A stretch of DNA of 42,111 bases from contig PKEX01000047.1 of NCBI GenBank assembly GCA_002919235.1, positions 1 to 42,111 of the forward strand. Reading direction: 5' to 3'. Under the pieces are notes generated by a model. The model saw nothing but the letters and a program-made list of their open reading frames with translations. It was not told the origin of the DNA and did not search any database. How positions within the stretch are numbered: position 1 is the stretch's first letter; each line of letters starts with the position of its first letter. Below are positions 11,912-21,683 of this stretch, piece after piece. Made by a program: the position numbers and the translations under genes. This DNA is from Clostridia bacterium (GTDB taxonomy: Bacteria > Bacillota > Limnochordia > DTU080 > RSA5).

Positions 11912-12838
11912 GTGGTGGCGGGGCACTCTCAGGAACCTCAGGCTCAAGCCGGGCAGCCGCGTGGCTACGAGCTGCTCGCGTCCACGTTTAAGCGGCGGAC
12001 GGGGATCGACCTGGCTGCGTACAAGGAGCGGCAGATGATCCGCCGCCTCACCAGCTACCTGAAGCGGGTGGATGCGCCCGATTTCGCGGCCCTGGCCCTG
12101 CGGATCGCCCGGGACGACGAGGCGCTGGCGCATCTCAAGGATTACATCACCATCAACGTCTCGGAGTTTTTCCGCAATCCCGACCGGTATGCCGTGCTGG
12201 AGTCGGATATCCTGCCGGAGCTGATCCGGAAGTTCGGCGCGCTGCGGGTCTGGAGCGCGGGCTGTTCCATCGGCGCGGAGCCGTACTCCCTCGCGATCTT
12301 GCTGGAGGAATTGGATCCACAGGGCGCCCACCGGGTGCTGGGCACGGACGTGGATACCGGTGCGCTGGAGGAAGCCCGGGCGGGCGTATTCGCCGCGGAC
12401 AAGCTGCGGGAGGTGTCCCCGGAGCGGCTTGAGCGGCACTTCACCCAGACCGGGGTGGGGCTATGGCAGGTCTCGCAGCGGGTCCGGGACCGGGTGCGTT
12501 TTCGCGTCCACGATCTCCTGCGGGATCCCTACCCCGTGGGGCAGCATCTCATCCTCTGCCGCAACGTCGTCATCTATTTCGTGGACGAGGCGAAAGAAGA
12601 GGTGTTCCACAAGCTGGCGGGGGCCCTGGTGGAAGGCGGCTACCTGATGGTCGGCAGCACCGAAAGCATCTTTAGGCCGGAACGGTACGGGCTGCAGTCG
12701 GCGGGATCGTTCATTTACCGCAAGGTCGGAGGAGGGGCGGCAGGCGTTGGCAAATTCACAAGTCTCCCCAAGGGTGATGCGGAAAGCGCTGATGCAGGCG
12801 GGCGAGGCTCTTTCGGGGCTTTTCGAGCGAAAGTTTAA
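11912..12838 (+). CDS. cheR: Chemotaxis protein methyltransferase CheR
   Basis: SAM-dependent methylation of receptor glutamates. The N-terminal helical domain is seen in LASTFKRRTGIDLAAYKERQM and ITINVSEFFRNPDRY. The catalytic Rossmann domain follows, with RVWSAGCSIGAEPYSLAI (SAM-binding loop), VLGTDVDTGALEEARAG and LILCRNVVIYFVDEAKEEV. The frame normally ends near FIYRKV, but here it runs on for about 35 Gly/Ala-rich residues, out of frame over the start of cheC. The start is GTG with only a weak upstream purine run (GGGATGGG). The gene is translationally overlapped by cheC, which has a strong ribosome binding site inside the cheR tail. Confidence 0.94.
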   Translation: MVAGHSQEPQAQAGQPRGYELLASTFKRRTGIDLAAYKERQMIRRLTSYLKRVDAPDFAALALRIARDDEALAHLKDYITINVSEFFRNPDRYAVLESDILPELIRKFGALRVWSAGCSIGAEPYSLAILLEELDPQGAHRVLGTDVDTGALEEARAGVFAADKLREVSPERLERHFTQTGVGLWQVSQRVRDRVRFRVHDLLRDPYPVGQHLILCRNVVIYFVDEAKEEVFHKLAGALVEGGYLMVGSTESIFRPERYGLQSAGSFIYRKVGGGAAGVGKFTSLPKGDAESADAGGRGSFGAFRAKV

Positions 12839-13313
12839 AATCGCCGAGATCGCGCTCTCGCACCGCACCCCGGCGGAGCTGCCCGAAATCCTCGGCGACG
12901 CAGCGGAACCGGTCTGCGCCTCGTTCTATCAAATCCGCGGGGAGATTCCCGGCTTTCTGCTCCTCATCATGCCGATCGACGAAGTGAACGCCTTCCTGAA
13001 GCCCCTCCTGGGCGACCACGTGACGGAGGAAGCCATGGCCGATTCGGCCTTCGGTGAAGTAGGAAACGTCGTCGGCAGCGCGTTCTTGAACTACCTGGCG
13101 GACTACTACCGCACCTACGCCGCCCCCACGCCGCCTCAGGTCTTTCGGGACATGGTGGGGGCGCTCATGGGGTCGCTGGCCGCGGTTTTTGTCGCGGAAG
13201 GCCAGGAGCAGGTGCCCGTCGTCAGGACGGTGTTCACCCAGGAGTCGGAGAAGCTGTCGGCGCTGCTCTTATGGATCCCATACGCACTGTCGCTGTCAGA
13301 GCTGAGGAAGTAG
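12747..13313 (+). CDS. cheC: CheC-like chemotaxis phosphatase
   Basis: Protein of 188 residues in the CheC/CheX/FliY family, which dephosphorylates CheY and partners CheD. The family active-site pattern is visible once, as FGEVGNVVGSAFLNYLAD (Glu and Asn separated by GxVG). The usual second site is not evident. The TTG start is supported by GGAGGAGGGG 9 nt upstream. It overlaps the end of cheR by 92 nt in another frame. An ATG at 12777 is the alternative but has no good ribosome binding site. cheD follows after 2 nt, the same pair as in B. subtilis and Thermotoga. Confidence 0.85.
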   Translation: MANSQVSPRVMRKALMQAGEALSGLFERKFKIAEIALSHRTPAELPEILGDAAEPVCASFYQIRGEIPGFLLLIMPIDEVNAFLKPLLGDHVTEEAMADSAFGEVGNVVGSAFLNYLADYYRTYAAPTPPQVFRDMVGALMGSLAAVFVAEGQEQVPVVRTVFTQESEKLSALLLWIPYALSLSELRK

Positions 13314-13315
13314 AC

Positions 13316-13861
13316 ATGATCCGGAGCATAGGACTGGGTGAATACGCCGTCGGACGAGACGTGCAAGAAGACTGGGCTATCTATGGGCTGGGATCGTGCG
13401 TCGGGTTGATCCTCTGCGAGCCCACGACGCGGGTCTTGGCCATGGCCCACGTGGTGCTGCCCGTGAGCCCGTCGCCCGACCCGGAGCAGCCGGCGCGGTA
13501 CGGCGATACGGTGGTCCCGTTCCTCCTGGAAGAGATGAAGAAGCTCGGGGCGGTGACAGAACACGTCATGGCCCAGCTGGCCGGCGGGGCGCGCATGTTT
13601 GAAATCAGCGGGGTCGCCGGGGACATCGGCCGTCGCAACGTGGAATCGGTGCGAAGCAGCCTGGCCCGGCACGGTGTGCCGGTAACCGCCGAAGAGGTGG
13701 GAGGAGCGTCGGGGCGGACCCTTCGCTGGCACGCCAAAACCCGCCTCGCGGTGGTCAGCCGGTTCGGGGCGCCCGATGTGATACTCACGCCGGACCGGTG
13801 CCGGGTCGGGGGAAGCTGGACGGACGGTCGAGTGGTAAAGAACAGCACGGAGCCGCGGTGA
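13316..13861 (+). CDS. cheD: Chemoreceptor glutamine deamidase CheD
   Basis: Deamidates receptor glutamines and binds CheC. The protein has 181 residues. The catalytic pattern is present: YGLGSCVGLILCE supplies the active-site cysteine (GSC) and LAMAHVVLP supplies the histidine. QLAGGARMFEISG and IGRRNVESVRSSL are the conserved later blocks. The ATG is chosen because it lies 2 nt after the cheC stop with GAGG upstream; a longer in-frame start inside cheC has no homology. Confidence 0.94.
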   Translation: MIRSIGLGEYAVGRDVQEDWAIYGLGSCVGLILCEPTTRVLAMAHVVLPVSPSPDPEQPARYGDTVVPFLLEEMKKLGAVTEHVMAQLAGGARMFEISGVAGDIGRRNVESVRSSLARHGVPVTAEEVGGASGRTLRWHAKTRLAVVSRFGAPDVILTPDRCRVGGSWTDGRVVKNSTEPR

Positions 13862-13885: not shown

Positions 13886-15763
13886 ATGACCGAAGAGATT
13901 CTCAAGCGGGCGCCCGGTGAGAGCGCCGGCGCAGGTGAATCAGCGAATCCGGCCGCAGCCGGGACGGGCGGTGCGTCCGCGCCCGATGCGGGATCCCAGA
14001 GGGAGAGGCCGTCCCCGCCGGGCCTGGTGGCGATTCAGGGCGGTAAGGTCGTCGTGCAGCTCCCCTCTCCGGACAGCCCCAGGCCTTCCATCACCCCCGG
14101 AGCCTACGTGGTCGTCGAGGTGAACGGAACGCAGATCCACGAGACGACCACCATCGACGTGGACGATGACGTCGCCATCCGGGCGCTCCCGGAGGAACCG
14201 GTGCTGGACATCCGGATCGAGGTGCCGAAGAGCGCCGAAGAAGCGGTGGCGCACGTGGTCCGCCGCGCGGGCACCGCCCACGAAGTCAAGGACGCGCCCT
14301 TTGCCCCTCACGTGACGGTGGCGGTGCGGCCCGTGGGGAAGATTCCCCCGCCGGAGCTCACCGCGGAGGCGGTGAAGAAGGCGCTGGCCGACGCCGGCGT
14401 GGTCTTTGGCATCGACGAGGCGGCCATCGAACAAATGATTGCCCGGCCCGAAGCCGACTTTCACGCAGTCGTGGCCCGGGCAAAGCCGCCCACGCCTCCG
14501 GTGGACTCCCATGCGAAACCCACGGTGAAGGAAGAGACCGTCGCCGAAGTGCAGCTGGACGAGCCTCACCGGGTGGACCTTCTGTATCGCGGCGAGATCT
14601 TCAGCGTGCAAGAGGGCGAAGTGGTAGCGGAGTGGGTCGACGCCCAGCCCGGCGTGGACGGGACGGACGTCCTGGGACGGCCCATCCCGGCGAAAAAGCC
14701 CAAGGTCCGCGCGCTCAAGCTGGGCAGCGGGGCGCGGCGGGCCGAAGGAAGCAAGTACATCGTCGCAGCCCGGACGGGCCGCCCGGTGGTGAAAGAGACC
14801 TTCGTCGACGTGGTGCCCTCCTACGAGGTGCCTGCTGACGTCAACGTGGCCACCGGGCACATCGATTTCGCCGGGGACGTGACGGTCCGCCGGAACGTGG
14901 AAGAAAGCTTGAAAGTCCGGGCGGGCGGCTCCGTGATCATCGGCGGCATGGTCTTCCGCAAAGCGCGGGTGGAGGCGGGAGGCTCCGTCCGGGTCCGGGG
15001 CGTGGTGGGGGGCTCCATCTCGGCGGGCGGCAATACCGCAGTCTACGGCCCGCTCATCGAAGGGCTGGGCAGGCTTGCGCCGCTGGTGCAGAAGGCCGCG
15101 GAGAACCTGCGCCGAGTCGAAGAGGCCTCCCGCGCGACGGGAAAGGCTTTCCAGATCGGCGTCGTCTTCAAAGCACTGCTGGAGCGTCATTTCGCCGAAG
15201 CGCAAAAGGTGGCTCAGTCGACCGGAGCCTTTTTGGCCCAGCACAAAGATGAGTTTGAGATGGACCTGGTGGCGCGGATCGCCACCGCCCTCCGGATCTT
15301 GGTGGGCCGGGGACCGCTGCTCGTCAAGAGCTTTGACGAGATCGAAGCGGCCCTGGAGGAGCTGCGGCTGATCCCGGCAGAACTGGAAGCCCGGATCGCC
15401 GAAGCCGACGTGATCGTGGAGTACCTCCAGAACGCGGAGATCGCGTGCGGCGGCAAGGTCCAGTTGGTGGGAAAGGCGTGCTACAACTCCAAGGTGATCG
15501 CCCGCAAGGGGTTTGAGGCGCCTGCCGCCACCATCCGGGGCGGCAGCATCACGGTGACCCACGGCAGCGTGGTGGCCCGGGAGATCGGCAGCCCGTCCGC
15601 GGTGGTGACGGAGATTGCGGTGCCCGAGGACGGCTCCATCAAGGCCGACGTGATCCATCCCAACGTCCGGTGCATCGTAGGGCATCGCCAATACCGCTTT
15701 GAAATCACCCGCCGGCGTGTGGTGCTCCACCTGGACCGGGAGACAGGAGAGCTGAGGTTTTGA
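13886..15763 (+). CDS. FapA/DUF342 family protein
   Basis: Large soluble protein of 625 residues of the DUF342 family, which includes flagellar assembly protein A (FapA), linked in other bacteria to polar localisation of flagella. A disordered Gly/Ala/Pro-rich N-terminus is followed by IHETTTIDVDDDVAIRALPE. The conserved FapA block is DAQPGVDGTDVLGRPIPAKK (residues around 250-270). A repetitive parallel-beta region (ATGHIDFAGDVTVRRNVEES, RAGGSVIIGGMVFRKARVEAG, VRVRGVVGGSISAGGN) and a helical section complete it. The ATG has GGGAGGGAGG upstream. Its TGA overlaps the TTG start of the FtsA-like gene, so the two are probably translated together. Function here is inferred from family and context. 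Confidence 0.85.
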   Translation: MTEEILKRAPGESAGAGESANPAAAGTGGASAPDAGSQRERPSPPGLVAIQGGKVVVQLPSPDSPRPSITPGAYVVVEVNGTQIHETTTIDVDDDVAIRALPEEPVLDIRIEVPKSAEEAVAHVVRRAGTAHEVKDAPFAPHVTVAVRPVGKIPPPELTAEAVKKALADAGVVFGIDEAAIEQMIARPEADFHAVVARAKPPTPPVDSHAKPTVKEETVAEVQLDEPHRVDLLYRGEIFSVQEGEVVAEWVDAQPGVDGTDVLGRPIPAKKPKVRALKLGSGARRAEGSKYIVAARTGRPVVKETFVDVVPSYEVPADVNVATGHIDFAGDVTVRRNVEESLKVRAGGSVIIGGMVFRKARVEAGGSVRVRGVVGGSISAGGNTAVYGPLIEGLGRLAPLVQKAAENLRRVEEASRATGKAFQIGVVFKALLERHFAEAQKVAQSTGAFLAQHKDEFEMDLVARIATALRILVGRGPLLVKSFDEIEAALEELRLIPAELEARIAEADVIVEYLQNAEIACGGKVQLVGKACYNSKVIARKGFEAPAATIRGGSITVTHGSVVAREIGSPSAVVTEIAVPEDGSIKADVIHPNVRCIVGHRQYRFEITRRRVVLHLDRETGELRF

Positions 15764-18048
15764 CGGCCATGAAGCCCCGGGAGGAAGAGACGCTGGCTGA
15801 AGCACCCCGGTTGATCTTGGACATCGGGACCCACAAGGTCTTGGGCCTGGCCGCCGTCCCTGCCGGAAGCGGCGTCCGGGTCTTGGCGTCGGCCCTCGCC
15901 CGTCACCCGGACCGCTCCATGCGGGACGGGCAGGTGCACGACGTGAAGGCCGTCGCGAAGGCCATCCGCCAGGTGGTGCGGGAGCTGGAGCAGGCCACGG
16001 GGCAGGCGTTTCACGAAGCCCACGTCGCCGCGGCGGGCCGCGCCTTGCGCACCGCGAAGGGCCGGGCGGAGACCTCCCACGCGCATCCGGTGACCCTGAG
16101 CGAGGAAGCGGAGCGTGGGCTGGTCTGGGAGGCGGTGGCCAGCGCCCAGGCGCACCTCTTGGAGGAGCTGCCCCCAGCTGAGCAGGCGCGAGGGTACTAC
16201 GCCGTCGCACACAGCGTCACCGCCAGCTGGCTGGACGGCGACCCGATCCGCTCGCTCTTGGGCCAGCGGGGCCAGCAGTTCGCCGTGGAGGTGCTCGCCA
16301 CGTTCCTTCCCGGCGTCGTGGTGGACTCGCTGGAGGCCGCCCTCAGAGAAGCGGGCCTGGAAATGAAGGGGCTCACGCTGGAGCCCATCGCGGCGCTGGA
16401 GGCCGTAATCCCGCCGACCAGCCGGCACTTGCATCTCGCGCTCATCGACATCGGAGCGGGCACGTCCGACATCGCGCTGACGGGCGGCGGGACGGTCAAG
16501 GCGTACGCGATGGTCCCGCGGGCGGGCGACGCGATCACCGAGGCGGTCTCGCAGGCGCTCCTCTTGGATTTCTCCGTGGCGGAGCAGGTGAAGCGACGCG
16601 TGGCCCGGGGAGAGACCGTCGCGGTGGAGAACGTCCTGGGTGAGCAGGTCGTCGTGGACCCGCCGCTCCTCTCCGACCTGATCGGTGAAGCCACGGTGCA
16701 TTTGGCAGAGGCCATCGCGGAAGAAGTGGTGCGGTGGGCCGCCGGGGGGCTGGACGCCGTGCTCCTGGTGGGCGGCGGGAGCCAGACCCCGGGACTGGCG
16801 GCGCACCTCGCGCGCTGCCTGGACATGCCCGAGCAGCGGGTGGCCGTGCGCGATCGCCGAGCTGTACGGAACGTGGAAGGGGCCGGCGACCTCAGCGGGC
16901 CCGACGCCGTGACGGCTCTAGGGATCGCCCTGCGGGCGTGCCGGGGCGAGGAGCTGCCGCCGGTGCGGGTCCGGGTGAACGGCCGCCCGGTCTGCCTTTT
17001 CCTGCCTGACCGCTGCACCGTCCGGGAAGCGGCCCGGGTGGCGGGGCTTTCGCCTTCGGACCTCATGGGCCGTTTGGGCCCGGGCATCACCGTCACCGTC
17101 AACGGCGAGGTGCTGGTGGTGCCGGGGACGCGCGGGGAGCCCGCGGTCGCCTGGCTCAGGGGCCAGCGCGTCTGTTTGGACACCGTTCTTAAGAACCAGG
17201 ACGAAGTGGTCCTGGACCCGCCCAAGCCGGGCCTTCCGGCCAGGCCAACCGTGGCCGAAGTGGTCGACCTCTACCTCCGGCGGCGAGGCGGGAGGCTGGA
17301 GCAGCCTCAGCCCCGGGTGCGCGCCCTGGGCCAGTGGCGCGAAGTCCCGCTCTGGGTGGGCCGCCGCGGCCGGCGGGTCCGTATGGACGAACTGGTCTAC
17401 GACCGGGATGTCCTCGAAGTGCGGTGGCCCCGGAACGGACGAGAGCTCTTGGAGGTGCTGCAGGATCCGGGCGAGCAGGATGTGAGCGGGCCCGTCGCCG
17501 AAGAGGACCTCGGGGCCGGCGCCGCAGGCGCCCCACGGCAAGCGGCCGGTGCCCCGGCGTTTGAGGCCGGCCCGGCGGGCGGCGTCTGCTGGGTGAACGG
17601 CGAGCCCGTCCAGCTGGCGCGCTTTTTCAAGGTCTACCGCAACGGAGCGCCGGCGGAGCTAAGCGAACCCGTGGAAGATGGCGATACATGGGAATGGGAG
17701 TCGCTTGGTCCGGTGACTGTGGGAGTCCTGTTGGACGAGATGGGGATCGAGCGGGAGTCCGTCGTCCACGTGACTGTCAACGGGAGGCCCGTCTCGGTCC
17801 GGCAGCCGGCGAACATCCTGCTCAACGGCGTGCCGGCCGATCCAAGCGACCGGGTGTCCGGCGGGGACGTGGTGGAAGTCCGCCCGGCCCGCGGTGTCTC
17901 GCTCTACGAGATCCTCCCGCACGCGGGGGTCTCCTGGGACGCGAGGCATGGCGACCGCCGCCGTTTGGTCCTGAAGGTGAAAGGGAACGAGGCGGACTTC
18001 ACCACCGAGGTCTTCGACGGAGACGACGTCACCATCGGGTTTGCGTGA
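15760..18048 (+). CDS. FtsA-like actin-family ATPase with C-terminal beta-grasp-like modules
   Basis: Protein of 762 residues. Residues 15-395 form an actin/HSP70-fold ATPase of the FtsA/PilM group. LILDIGTHKVLGL (Asp21) is the first phosphate loop, LALIDIGAGTSDIAL (around 226-240) the second, and LLVGGGSQTPGLAAHL (around 336) the adenosine motif. The segment before the second loop resembles the FtsA 1C domain. No membrane-targeting amphipathic helix ends the protein. Instead residues 400-762 hold several small VNG-type units (RVRVNGRPVCLF, TVTVNGEVLVVPG, CWVNGEPVQLA, HVTVNGRPVSV), each ending with a short acidic strand (for example DEVVLDPP, DVVEVRP). These look like repeated ThiS/beta-grasp-type domains. 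The TTG start overlaps the fapA stop; an ATG at 15769 is the alternative. The role is unknown; a scaffold or positioning ATPase is possible. Confidence 0.75.
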   Translation: MTAMKPREEETLAEAPRLILDIGTHKVLGLAAVPAGSGVRVLASALARHPDRSMRDGQVHDVKAVAKAIRQVVRELEQATGQAFHEAHVAAAGRALRTAKGRAETSHAHPVTLSEEAERGLVWEAVASAQAHLLEELPPAEQARGYYAVAHSVTASWLDGDPIRSLLGQRGQQFAVEVLATFLPGVVVDSLEAALREAGLEMKGLTLEPIAALEAVIPPTSRHLHLALIDIGAGTSDIALTGGGTVKAYAMVPRAGDAITEAVSQALLLDFSVAEQVKRRVARGETVAVENVLGEQVVVDPPLLSDLIGEATVHLAEAIAEEVVRWAAGGLDAVLLVGGGSQTPGLAAHLARCLDMPEQRVAVRDRRAVRNVEGAGDLSGPDAVTALGIALRACRGEELPPVRVRVNGRPVCLFLPDRCTVREAARVAGLSPSDLMGRLGPGITVTVNGEVLVVPGTRGEPAVAWLRGQRVCLDTVLKNQDEVVLDPPKPGLPARPTVAEVVDLYLRRRGGRLEQPQPRVRALGQWREVPLWVGRRGRRVRMDELVYDRDVLEVRWPRNGRELLEVLQDPGEQDVSGPVAEEDLGAGAAGAPRQAAGAPAFEAGPAGGVCWVNGEPVQLARFFKVYRNGAPAELSEPVEDGDTWEWESLGPVTVGVLLDEMGIERESVVHVTVNGRPVSVRQPANILLNGVPADPSDRVSGGDVVEVRPARGVSLYEILPHAGVSWDARHGDRRRLVLKVKGNEADFTTEVFDGDDVTIGFA

Positions 18049-18120
18049 TCCGGCAGAGCCGGTGGCCGGCGGGCCTTTCCAGCGGCGGCAGCCGTGACGA
18101 CGAAGGGGGATATCCAAGCC

Positions 18121-18585
18121 ATGAAGGTCGAGTACGTCGAGCCGTTTGTCGCGGCAGCAATGAACATTCTCTCGAGCGAGCTGCAGATCGAGGTGGAACG
18201 CGGCAAGCTCCGTGCGGACGGCAGCTACTTTACGACCAAGGAAGTTTCGGTGCTGATCGGCATCACCGGCGAGGTCGAGGGGAACGTAGTCTACGGCTTT
18301 CACCGGATCGTCGCGATGGACATCGCCAGCCGCATGCTGGGCCATCCGTTGAAGGAGTTCGACGAGATGAGCAAGAGCGCCATCGCGGAGCTGGGCAACA
18401 TCATTTCGGGCCACGCGGCCACGCTCTTCGAAAAGCGGAAGATCGCCTGCGCCATCTCGCCTCCGAGCCTGATCATCGGGAAAGGGACGCGGATTCAGAC
18501 GGTCGGCATCCCCCGCCTGGTCATCCCGCTGGAGATCGAGTTCGGCGAGATCGAAATCGGAGTTTCGCTGCGGGAGAACTTCTAG
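18121..18585 (+). CDS. cheX: CheY-P phosphatase CheX
   Basis: Dephosphorylates CheY-P. The protein has 154 residues, the CheX size. The opening MKVEYVEPFVAAAMNILS is the family start. The active-site helix is SAIAELGNIISGHAATLFEK (Glu, then GN, two helical turns apart). The C-terminal strands VIPLEIEFGEIEIGVSL close the fold. The ATG is preferred over an in-frame GTG at 18094 on family length and the AAGGGGG 11 nt upstream. The window therefore carries both a CheC-CheD pair and a CheX phosphatase. Confidence 0.93.
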   Translation: MKVEYVEPFVAAAMNILSSELQIEVERGKLRADGSYFTTKEVSVLIGITGEVEGNVVYGFHRIVAMDIASRMLGHPLKEFDEMSKSAIAELGNIISGHAATLFEKRKIACAISPPSLIIGKGTRIQTVGIPRLVIPLEIEFGEIEIGVSLRENF

Positions 18586-18660: not shown

Positions 18661-19323
18661 ATGTTGTCGATGCGGAATTTCAGAGGCGGAGGCCAGCCCA
18701 GCGTGAATCCACTACCCCCGACGAAGCGGTCGAACTTGCCCGGATGGGATCATCACGAGGCTTTTCAACAAGCCATTTCCAAGCTGGCGGGCGCCTTGGA
18801 GGACCTGGCCTCCCGTTTCCCGGAGGCCCGGGTCGACCAGCCGGGACCGGAGCCCAGGGAGCCTGAGTTTTTCGCCACGGCCCTGCGGGTGCCGGGGGAC
18901 GAAGACACCGGACTCCGGCCCGTGATGCTGGTGTATGTGCTCAGCCCCGACTGGTTCTCCAGGAAGCCCACCGGCTTGATCACCTTCGTGGCGGCCATAG
19001 GTTATCCGGCGGCGGCCATCGGCATGCGGCGCTTCCTGCGCACGTGGCACGAGGGCCGCCTGGGAGGCGAAACCGTCTACGAGGGCGATCTCACCGAGGA
19101 CGGGTTTGTAGAGCCGAGCATCGCCGCCGCGGAACGGTTTTTCCAGCGGAGAAAGGAGCTCAGCGCCCGGGCGCAGGAGCTCAGCAGCATCGCGGTCTGG
19201 CCCATCACCGGCTACGCCCCGCGGCTCTGCACCTACTGCCTGGTGCCGGCAGGCCAAGGGGTCTGCCCCCGCTGCGGCAAACCGGTTCTGGCGGTCCAGC
19301 CAGGGCGGCCGGAGGGGCCGTAG
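18661..19323 (+). CDS. Unknown protein with C-terminal zinc ribbon
   Basis: Protein of 220 residues with no family I can name. After a basic N-terminus and a helix (FQQAISKLAGALEDLASRF) comes a compact alpha/beta section with VMLVYVLSPDWFSRKPTGLITFVAAIGYP. The C-terminus has a CxxC-x8-CxxC zinc-ribbon pattern at Cys190, 193, 202 and 205 (LCTYC and VCPRCGKP). The start is uncertain: ATG 18661 or ATG 18670, both with GTGAGG upstream. It lies between cheX and cheA on the same strand and is probably part of the chemotaxis operon. The ribbon suggests metal-dependent folding or protein or nucleic-acid binding; a role in chemotaxis is only inferred from position. Confidence 0.7.
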   Translation: MLSMRNFRGGGQPSVNPLPPTKRSNLPGWDHHEAFQQAISKLAGALEDLASRFPEARVDQPGPEPREPEFFATALRVPGDEDTGLRPVMLVYVLSPDWFSRKPTGLITFVAAIGYPAAAIGMRRFLRTWHEGRLGGETVYEGDLTEDGFVEPSIAAAERFFQRRKELSARAQELSSIAVWPITGYAPRLCTYCLVPAGQGVCPRCGKPVLAVQPGRPEGP

Positions 19324-19385: not shown

Positions 19386-21683
19386 ATGGCGGGCTACGAG
19401 CTCACTCCCGAGGAGATCAAGCTCTTTCTCGAAGAGGCCAGCGAACAGGTACAGATCATGGAGGAGACCCTCATCGCCCTGGAGGAGGACCCGGACAACC
19501 CCGGTCTGATCCAGGAGATCTTCCGCGCCGCGCACACGCTGAAAGGCGGCTCGGCCACGGCCGGCTTCGATAACATGGCCCGGCTCACCCACGCCATGGA
19601 GTCGCTCCTCGATCAAGTGCGCCAGGGCGAGCGGGAGATGTCGTCGGAGATCGCCGACCCGCTTTTCGAGGGCGTCGACCTGCTGCGTCGCTGCCTTGCC
19701 GAAATCGCCCAGGTAGGCCATGCGGAGAACATTGACGTGACCCCGCTCATCGCGGCCTTGGAAGAGCAGATCGGCGCAGGTGCCGCACCGCCTGCGGCTC
19801 CGGGCCGGGGCGCGGCAGCGACGAAGGAGGCGCCAGGGGCCACCGGCGCAGGGGAGGCGGCGCCCGCCTGGGATCCCACCGGCGGGCAGGGGCAGCAGGC
19901 CTGGTGGGAGACGATCGACCGGCCGTATGGGGAGGCGGCTGACGCCGGCTGGGTGCCCGCGCAGGATCCGTCGCCCGCGGCGGGCGTGCCCGTCGCCGTC
20001 GAAGTGCAGATCGCGCCGACCGCCCTGATGTCGTCGGTCCGCGCCTACCAGGTGCTTCTGGTGCTCCAAGACTACGGCGAGGTGCTATGGAGCGAACCCT
20101 CCCGCCAGGCCATCGAGTCGGGCACCGCGGAAGTGCGGCGTGTCCGCGCGACGCTCCGCCTTAAGGAGCCAGGGGCGGGAGGGGATCCTGAGCGCTTAGA
20201 ATCGCTCGAACGGGCGCTCCTCGAGATACCTGAGATCGTATCGGCTTCGGTGGCCAAGGCCGTCTCGGCGGACGGTGAAGCCGGCGCGACGCGCGCGGAC
20301 GCCTCCGGGGCAGAGGCGCAGACGCCGCAAGCCCCCGCACCGGCTGCGGCGTCTGCGCCAGTTCCGGCGGCTTCGCCTGAGGGCGAGGGCAGGCAGACGC
20401 GGGAGGCGGCGACCTCTGCGCGGGGCGGCGCGGGCGGGAGCACGGCTTCCACCGCGAGCGCGGCCTCGGCCGCGTCGCTGGGGCAGACGATCCGGGTTGA
20501 CGTCACGCTTCTCGACAATCTCATGAACCTCGTCGGCGAGCTGGTCATCGACCGGACGCGCCTTGCCCAGCTGGCCATGGTCGACATGAGTGCCGACGAG
20601 CTCAAAGAAGAGCTCACGGGTGTCTCCAGCAGCCTGAGCCGGATCACCACCGACCTGCAGGACACCATCATGCACGCGCGGATGATGCCGGTGGACACCC
20701 TGTTCAAGAAGTTCCCCCGTCTCGTGCGGGATCTCTCCCGGCAGCTGGGTAAAGAGGTCGACTTCGAGATGTCGGGGAACGAAACCGAACTCGACCGCTC
20801 GGTGATCGAACAGATTGGCGATCCCCTGATCCACCTCTTGCGCAACGCGATCGATCACGGCATCGAGCCCGCGGAGGAGCGCCGCCAGAAGGGGAAGAGC
20901 CCCCGGGGGAAAGTACGCCTGCACGCCTATCATCAAGAGAACCACATTTACATCCAAGTCTCCGACGACGGACGGGGGCTCAACGCCGAAAAAATTCTCC
21001 GCAAGGCCATCGAGCGCGGGTTGGTCCGTCCTGACGAGGCCAGCCGCCTGAGCCGGGAAACGATCTACGAGTTCATCTTTGCGCCCGGCTTCAGCACCGC
21101 TGCGGAGGTGAGCTCCGTCTCCGGCCGCGGCGTCGGGATGGACGTGGTCAAGCGCAATCTTGAGAAAGTAAATGGCAGCGTGACGGTAGTGACGGAAGAG
21201 GGCAGGGGCACCACGTTCACCATCAAGCTCCCGCTGACGCTGGTGATCGTCCAAGCCCTGATGGTGGAGATCGCCCAGAGCGTGATGGCGATCCCGCTCT
21301 CCAACGTGACCGAAGCCGTGCAGGTGACTTCCGCCGACATCCATTACGCCCGGGGCTGGGAGATGATCGAAATCCGGGGCGAGATGGTGCCGCTGCTCAA
21401 CCCCGGCGCCATCTGGGGCAGCGGCTGGTCCGTCGAGCCGCCGCCGGGCAAGGCCCTCCCTGTGGTGATCCTGCGTTCCGGCTCATCGCCGCTGGGGCTC
21501 AAGGTGAACCGCCTCCTCGGCGAGCAGGAGATCGTCATCAAGGCCATGGGACCGGTGATCGGCAACGTGCCCGGGATCTCGGGCGCTTCGATCCTGGGCG
21601 ACGGCAGTGTCGCCCTGATCATCGACCCCGCCGGGCTCTCCAAGGCCGTAAAGCAGGCGGAAGCGGCGGAGCGGACGGCGTGA
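19386..21683 (+). CDS. cheA: Chemotaxis histidine kinase CheA
   Basis: Central kinase of the pathway, 765 residues. P1 phosphotransfer domain with phospho-His50 in RAAHTLKGGSATAG. A Gly/Ala-rich linker leads to a P2-like CheY/CheB-docking domain around residues 200-300. A second Ala-rich linker leads to the P3 dimerisation helices (LLDNLMNLVGELVIDRTRL). The P4 ATP-binding domain has Asn487 in HLLRNAIDHGIEP, SDDGRGLN, and GRGVGMDVVKRNLE with GRGTTFTIKLPLTL. The P5 CheW-like domain ends the protein (GEMVPLLNPGAIWG, LRSGSSPLGLKVNRLLGEQE). The ATG has AAGGAGG 7 nt upstream. All catalytic boxes are intact. It phosphorylates the CheY and CheB encoded in the same block. Confidence 0.97.
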   Translation: MAGYELTPEEIKLFLEEASEQVQIMEETLIALEEDPDNPGLIQEIFRAAHTLKGGSATAGFDNMARLTHAMESLLDQVRQGEREMSSEIADPLFEGVDLLRRCLAEIAQVGHAENIDVTPLIAALEEQIGAGAAPPAAPGRGAAATKEAPGATGAGEAAPAWDPTGGQGQQAWWETIDRPYGEAADAGWVPAQDPSPAAGVPVAVEVQIAPTALMSSVRAYQVLLVLQDYGEVLWSEPSRQAIESGTAEVRRVRATLRLKEPGAGGDPERLESLERALLEIPEIVSASVAKAVSADGEAGATRADASGAEAQTPQAPAPAAASAPVPAASPEGEGRQTREAATSARGGAGGSTASTASAASAASLGQTIRVDVTLLDNLMNLVGELVIDRTRLAQLAMVDMSADELKEELTGVSSSLSRITTDLQDTIMHARMMPVDTLFKKFPRLVRDLSRQLGKEVDFEMSGNETELDRSVIEQIGDPLIHLLRNAIDHGIEPAEERRQKGKSPRGKVRLHAYHQENHIYIQVSDDGRGLNAEKILRKAIERGLVRPDEASRLSRETIYEFIFAPGFSTAAEVSSVSGRGVGMDVVKRNLEKVNGSVTVVTEEGRGTTFTIKLPLTLVIVQALMVEIAQSVMAIPLSNVTEAVQVTSADIHYARGWEMIEIRGEMVPLLNPGAIWGSGWSVEPPPGKALPVVILRSGSSPLGLKVNRLLGEQEIVIKAMGPVIGNVPGISGASILGDGSVALIIDPAGLSKAVKQAEAAERTA

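Follow-up and report, generated by a model that had tools for sequence, protein, structure and literature searches.

Two families of actin-type ATPases, canonical FtsA (TIGR01174; structures 7q6d/f/g and 3wqt) and PilM (TIGR01175; 2ych), are the closest described relatives of the protein analyzed here. Its likeness to canonical FtsA lies in a predicted actin fold with a 1C region, in the ATP motifs and in an alignment along the full length of the core. It differs from canonical FtsA by scoring below the family cut-off, by belonging to a clade of its own, by its location outside the dcw cluster, and by a beta-grasp extension of 360 residues on a protein in which no amphipathic tail was seen. 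PilM has the same FtsA-like core and one homologue already bears its name, whereas the present protein carries the beta-grasp tail and is encoded beside che genes and fapA, not in a pilMNOPQ-type operon. The tail modules are predicted to share the fold of ThiS/MoaD/SAMP, of TGS domains and of the bacterial multi-ubiquitin proteins (9cd2, 9d5a). Unlike these ubiquitin-like proteins, the present one has no terminal GG and is joined to an actin core.

To our knowledge, the placement and the inheritance of chemoreceptor arrays in Gram-positive bacteria are poorly explained. PpfA/TlpT is an array positioning system and, like ParC/ParP, it combines a ParA-type Walker ATPase with an array-integrating protein. 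ParC/ParP is described as a chemosensory-array positioning system (PMC5706961). The likeness between these two systems and the present locus is limited to the proposed job, an NTPase-linked placement of arrays, and the ATPase found here is of the actin type with beta-grasp arms, not of the ParA type. An actin-type ATPase that is widespread, that is almost confined to genomes with CheA and that at least one record calls PilM would be a candidate for array placement. If this is true, an FtsA-type actin would be put to a new use beyond division and pili, and the actin fold joined to tandem ubiquitin-like domains would be a new combination. Even if the link with chemotaxis is indirect, a protein present in over half of the genomes sampled from the phylum is without a correct name. 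No description of an FtsA-like/beta-grasp family was found in a literature search, which was judged from search listings and whose coverage excluded most subscription journals.

The gene and its surroundings

The window, that is, the whole stretch of 42,111 nucleotides of contig PKEX01000047.1 from a Clostridia bacterium, contains the features listed in Table 1. The TTG start of the FtsA-like gene overlaps the fapA stop by 4 bp, and an alternative start, ATG, lies three codons past it. The genes follow one another on the same strand in the order cheW, cheY, cheR, cheC-like, cheD, fapA, FtsA-like gene, cheX, gene of the 220-aa protein, cheA, cheB, MCP gene and cheW, in which the labels cheY, cheR, cheB, MCP and the second cheW were assigned by reading the open reading frames. 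The flanks fapA, cheD and cheX, proposed in the earlier note on this DNA from its letters, are borne out by profile matches. Promoter and terminator scans gave nothing exceeding shuffles. FapA itself has about 150 additional N-terminal residues (13886-14350), with a VNG-type stretch, ahead of its matched FapA_N domain. The 220-aa protein carries C-terminal CxxC pairs, and the sister genus has one too.

Table 1. Coordinates of the features of the locus (positions of the window; residue borders of the tail modules are approximate)
Feature	Position	Strand	Basis or remark
CheC-like gene	12747..13313	+	NF041093 E 4e-16, below cut-off
cheD	13271..13861	+	profile match
fapA	13886..15763	+	PF20250 and PF03961
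FtsA-like protein gene, tandem beta-grasp tail	15760..18048	+	intact ORF, 762 aa
Predicted actin-fold (FtsA-like) core, residues ~20-395	15817..16944	+	PF14450, TIGR01174, PDB sequence match, motif comparison
Putative beta-grasp module 1, residues ~401-489, two VNG hairpins	16960..17226	+	motifs and conservation; low model confidence
Putative beta-grasp module 2, residues ~490-556	17227..17427	+	model pLDDT ~73-87
Putative beta-grasp module 3, residues ~557-648	17428..17703	+	low-confidence linker ~569-607
Putative beta-grasp module 4, residues ~649-708	17704..17883	+	model; Ub-Mut7C E 0.0002 at module end, below cut-off
Putative beta-grasp module 5 / C-terminal helix-strand unit, residues ~709-762	17884..18045	+	model; VIA-align
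cheX	18094..18585	+	PF13690 E 4.7e-18
Gene of 220-aa protein, between cheX and cheA	18661..19323	+	no Pfam or NCBIfam match
cheA	19386..21683	+	H-kinase_dim match at 20484-20675

An actin-type core

On sequence grounds, the core can be assigned to an FtsA-type actin fold with ATP motifs and a 1C region. The Pfam FtsA model PF14450 matches residues 227-388 over its cut-off (E 1.9e-12), while the ftsA model TIGR01174 covers residues 20-362 with 85.8 bits, below its cut-off of 175.85. The core scores better with FtsA than with MreB or with PilM, the TIGR01175 score of 61.4 bits being below a cut-off of 133 bits (38-70 bits in relatives). The motifs for phosphate 1, phosphate 2 and adenosine, DIGT, DIGAGTSD and GGGS respectively, are intact and are also the consensus across 79 long cores, in agreement with the intact actin-type ATPase claimed earlier. 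As judged from sequence, the 1C region between subdomains 1A and 2A is filled, with a mean of 116 residues versus 107 in FtsA and 68 in MreB. The nearest solved structures by sequence are those of FtsA (7q6f, E 1.8e-14, then 7q6g and 7q6d), followed by PilM 2ych (E 7e-8). A full-length model computed with 3 sequences predicted the core poorly (most residues ahead of 255 have a pLDDT under 50), so that the assignment relies on homology.

A tail of ubiquitin-like modules

Residues ~400-762 are read, from sequence and model together, as about five ubiquitin/ThiS-like beta-grasp modules. The repeat unit consists of a helix, a V.VNG hairpin, NG.PA and GD.(V/I)E. The [VIL]NG motif occurs 5 times in the tail of the window protein versus 0.29 expected in shuffles, and its excess is found in all 18 of the C-terminal sequences tested (p 0.0005-0.0015). 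When the C-termini of the family were scanned singly at E<=0.1, Ub-Mut7C was matched by 18/18, TGS by 14/18 and ThiS by 13/18, with a best value of 4.8e-17. Of five full-length relatives scanned, three (L063, L060 and L198) exceed the ThiS cut-off, and the beta-grasp Pfam matches of the window protein taken alone all stay below cut-off.

An AlphaFold model of residues 397-762, built from 3 sequences, has a mean pLDDT of 67.8. Apart from the linker, residues 490-762 are mostly at 70-90 and residues 397-493 mostly below 50. The multi-ubiquitin proteins 9cd2 (4.6e-5) and 9d5a rank first when this model is submitted to Foldseek, with ThiS 3cwi (target TM 0.59) and SUMO-like folds at lower ranks. 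VIA-align returned SAMP1, a MoaD-like protein, TGS domains and ThiS with Z 7 to 8 over 60-65 residues (rmsd 1.9 to 3.1 A), values to be weighed jointly with the sequence evidence since a Z below 8 can mean a common arrangement. The alignments listed mostly span model residues 267-366 and barely cover the remaining modules. The repeated VNG-type, beta-grasp-like modules noticed at first sight are supported by motif excess, profiles, Foldseek and VIA-align. A disordered C-terminal region, which the earlier note named as fatal to its repeat claim, does not describe the tail as a whole, since the model is confident over most of residues 490-762.

The window protein ends in ...DDVTIGFA, and the C-terminal GG that serves in sulfur transfer or conjugation is absent. 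Neither a transmembrane segment nor a strongly hydrophobic tail stretch was seen in it, and the C-terminal amphipathic membrane helix of the FtsA type was not seen either, the model placing a beta strand at the C-terminus. This supports the earlier remark that the usual FtsA membrane tail is lacking.

Distribution and phylogeny

Among the 80 nearest genomes, many have relatives of the same architecture; a match of some kind, FtsA and MreB matches included, was obtained in 66. The window protein was aligned with 38 of these relatives, and the tail profile A3 was built from 18 of the 39 available C-termini (L040 and L041 duplicate L006 and L007, L042 is a fragment, and L068, which has an in-frame stop, was omitted). 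This profile finds 173 of 299 genomes of the phylum at E<=0.001 and 167 at E<1e-10. The six weak matches (E 1e-4 to 1e-3: G135, G136, G138, G289, G307 and G343) were counted as non-carriers.

A tree was computed from 126 actin cores, two of which, from MreB, served as the outgroup. In it, 79 long forms constitute one clade (support 0.80) and 35 canonical FtsA a separate one (0.99). The long FtsA-like actins with a beta-grasp tail are a distinct, phylum-wide clade apart from canonical FtsA. The same tree contains a third clade (1.0) of 10 short, divergent FtsA-like proteins of 404-420 aa (L095-L101, L103, L104 and L106), which are below the TIGR01174 cut-off.

Gene neighborhoods

Among the relatives compared, the cheD-fapA-gene-cheX setting is common to the sister genus (L039) only. 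The fapA, cheD and cheX flanks, offered in the earlier note as a clue, lose their value on this account, and the context of a chemotaxis operon was rejected as main evidence. FapA was likewise discarded as a partner: fapA is near the gene only in this setting and at none of the phylum loci examined. The gene is close to fliD in the class relatives L038 and L044, and to fliS also in L038. In most relatives it sits among unrelated genes.

Sixty stretches were fetched across the phylum, and the count of cheR neighbors uses the 40 that were chosen mainly for contiguity. The other 20 were kept out of the statistics: they had been chosen partly as exceptions or for a CheA on the same contig, and L192 is without the gene. 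A cheR lies within 10 kb of the gene in 9 of the 40 genomes (G139, G158, G121, G082, G223, G342, G185, G128 and G109, from eight families) versus 0.52 expected from the 74 CheR matches there. The order hemL-cheR-gene recurs in several of these loci, so that the proximity may trace to few ancestral arrangements. In one more of the 40, L147, the gene stands beside cheW, cheD and cheB. Proximity to cheA was dropped as evidence, a rough estimate from coordinates giving 4 genomes within ~12 kb versus ~2 expected, which is not clearly above chance. A second recurrent setting, minE-gene-rodA/ftsW, is tied to division or elongation and to sporulation, and weighs against a chemosensory role. It was found in L134, L151, L152 and L153 as PBP2-like, minC, minD, minE, gene, rodA/ftsW-like and spoIVFA/B-like, with gene names assigned by reading the open reading frames.

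Co-occurrence with the chemotaxis kinase

The same 299 genomes were searched for CheA (PF02895, 246 genomes), FlhA (PF00771, 246), Spo0A_C (257) and T2SSF (273). Of the 167 carriers, 165 encode CheA, and of the 132 non-carriers 81 do so, a difference with p 6e-19 in a Fisher test that treats related genomes as independent. Kinship enters only by taking one genome per family, and the link then persists over 122 families (64:1 against 34:23, p 2e-8). It is also found within strata, namely in Spo0A+ genomes (154:2 against 74:27), in Spo0A- genomes (11:0 against 7:24) and inside T2SSF+ genomes (161:2 against 72:38). The gene is associated with Spo0A overall (OR 4.4), and this effect vanishes inside CheA+ genomes (OR 1.3, p 0.6), so that sporulation was rejected as the driver.

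When the genomes are divided by both markers, the carriers number 157/235 with CheA and FlhA, 8/11 with CheA only, 2/11 with FlhA only and 0/42 with neither, the contrast between 8/11 and 2/11 having a p of 0.03. The protein therefore almost requires CheA, and the converse does not hold. Indeed, 78 of the 235 CheA+FlhA+ genomes lack the gene, so chemotaxis in itself does not depend on it. The chemotaxis link seen in the window is thus supported and is much broader than could be perceived from there, with CheA in nearly all carriers and cheR nearby in 9/40. Where the earlier note proposed either flagella or chemoreceptor arrays, the chemoreceptor part has gained from these class counts and the flagellum part is the weaker one.

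Division proteins and the long form

PF14450 identifies, in the source genome (99.45 percent complete), the FtsA-like gene and two others that are read as MreB; no canonical FtsA is found there by this model and TIGR01174 adds none. The dcw cluster, whose names were assigned by reading the open reading frames, comprises ftsW, murG, murB, murA, ftsQ and ftsZ, with ftsZ directly after ftsQ and without ftsA. Both FtsZ and SepF are encoded in the genome. With canonical FtsA scored as present at E<=1e-40, the 299 genomes divide into 107 with the long form and FtsA, 60 with the long form only, 58 with FtsA only and 74 with neither. Replacement of FtsA by the long gene would predict a negative association and the observed one is positive (OR 2.3), so a substitute role was rejected on these counts. 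The caveat that this might be the only FtsA of the genome, and might simply serve division, is literally true in its first half, but FtsZ and SepF are present and the gene does not compensate for FtsA loss across the phylum.

Proposed role and alternative explanations

The almost exclusive occurrence with chemotaxis sensing suggests a role there and not in cell division. By analogy with FtsA, the core would bind ATP and self-assemble. The beta-grasp arms, judging from their fold, may dock array or adaptation proteins, with MCP, CheA/W, CheR and CheD as candidate partners, and the assembled protein would scaffold, position or segregate the chemoreceptor arrays. The simplest such mechanism would be a filament that scaffolds or positions either the arrays or the enzymes of adaptation. 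We give a little less than an even chance to the reading that this FtsA-like actin ATPase, whose beta-grasp tail stands in place of the membrane tail, acts within the chemosensory system or upon it, likely as an array scaffold or positioner; the link is statistical and the mechanism is one that we infer. The stronger form, in which an FtsA-descended ATPase with ubiquitin-like arms would serve much of the Bacillota as a cytoskeletal element dedicated to chemosensing, there to build, place or segregate arrays or to hold CheR/CheD, is doubtful.

The main rival is one of lifestyle, free-living, motile Bacillota with larger genomes retaining both chemotaxis and a protein of unrelated function. It would agree with the absence of che genes at most loci and with the associations of the gene with Spo0A, with canonical FtsA and with the T2SS/T4P marker (OR 8.2). 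We nevertheless consider it unlikely, as the Spo0A association is gone inside CheA+ genomes, the CheA link is strong in Spo0A+, Spo0A- and T2SSF+ genomes alike, and cheR proximity is far over expectation. The protein could also be the division FtsA of the source lineage, tethering FtsZ to the membrane through an altered tail, as the lack of any other FtsA in a nearly complete genome, the lack of one between ftsQ and ftsZ and the min-rodA setting of four phylum loci would allow. Against it stand the tail, in which neither a membrane-binding end nor a transmembrane segment was seen, the presence of SepF, the genomes with both forms or with neither, the positive association and the separate clade, all of which make this explanation quite unlikely.

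A factor for the placement or number of flagella, and not of receptor arrays, would account for the presence of FlhA in 159/167 carriers (p 4e-11) and for the fliD neighbors of the two class relatives. This association is weaker than that with CheA, and the 8 carriers without FlhA all possess CheA, even if some of these genomes are only 85 to 99 percent complete and three of them (G080, G226 and G250) belong to one family, f25; the flagellar explanation therefore appears improbable. The least probable of these alternatives, and a remote one, is that the protein acts in the manner of PilM, as a partner of type IV pili or in surface motility. PilM_2 is over its cut-off in 5/5 relatives scanned (L198, L063, L060, L046 and L151) and a homologue from Anoxybacillus is annotated as pilM, but the window protein reaches only 23.6 of the 27 bits required by PilM_2, TIGR01175 is below cut-off in 5/5 members scanned, no pil gene was seen beside the Anoxybacillus gene, and four carriers lack the T2SSF marker.

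Homologues in other records

The Anoxybacillus amylolyticus homologue, WP_066327715.1, is 37 percent identical to the window protein over 693 alignment columns and is annotated 'pilus assembly protein PilM'. It is encoded on a 258-kb plasmid (L198, 11974-14133), flanked by ytxJ and by a gene for DAHP synthase, and this plasmid also has rpsD, tyrS and murC. In the L006 stretch, repeats at 1-1050 translate as GSPPRAWGR / RFTPTCVGT units and resemble the translation of a CRISPR array. Relatives of the FtsA-like protein are also encoded in MT835546, MT835512, MT838807 and similar GenBank records from human stool filed as 'Bacteriophage sp.', and because of their presence such records may be pieces of host chromosome.
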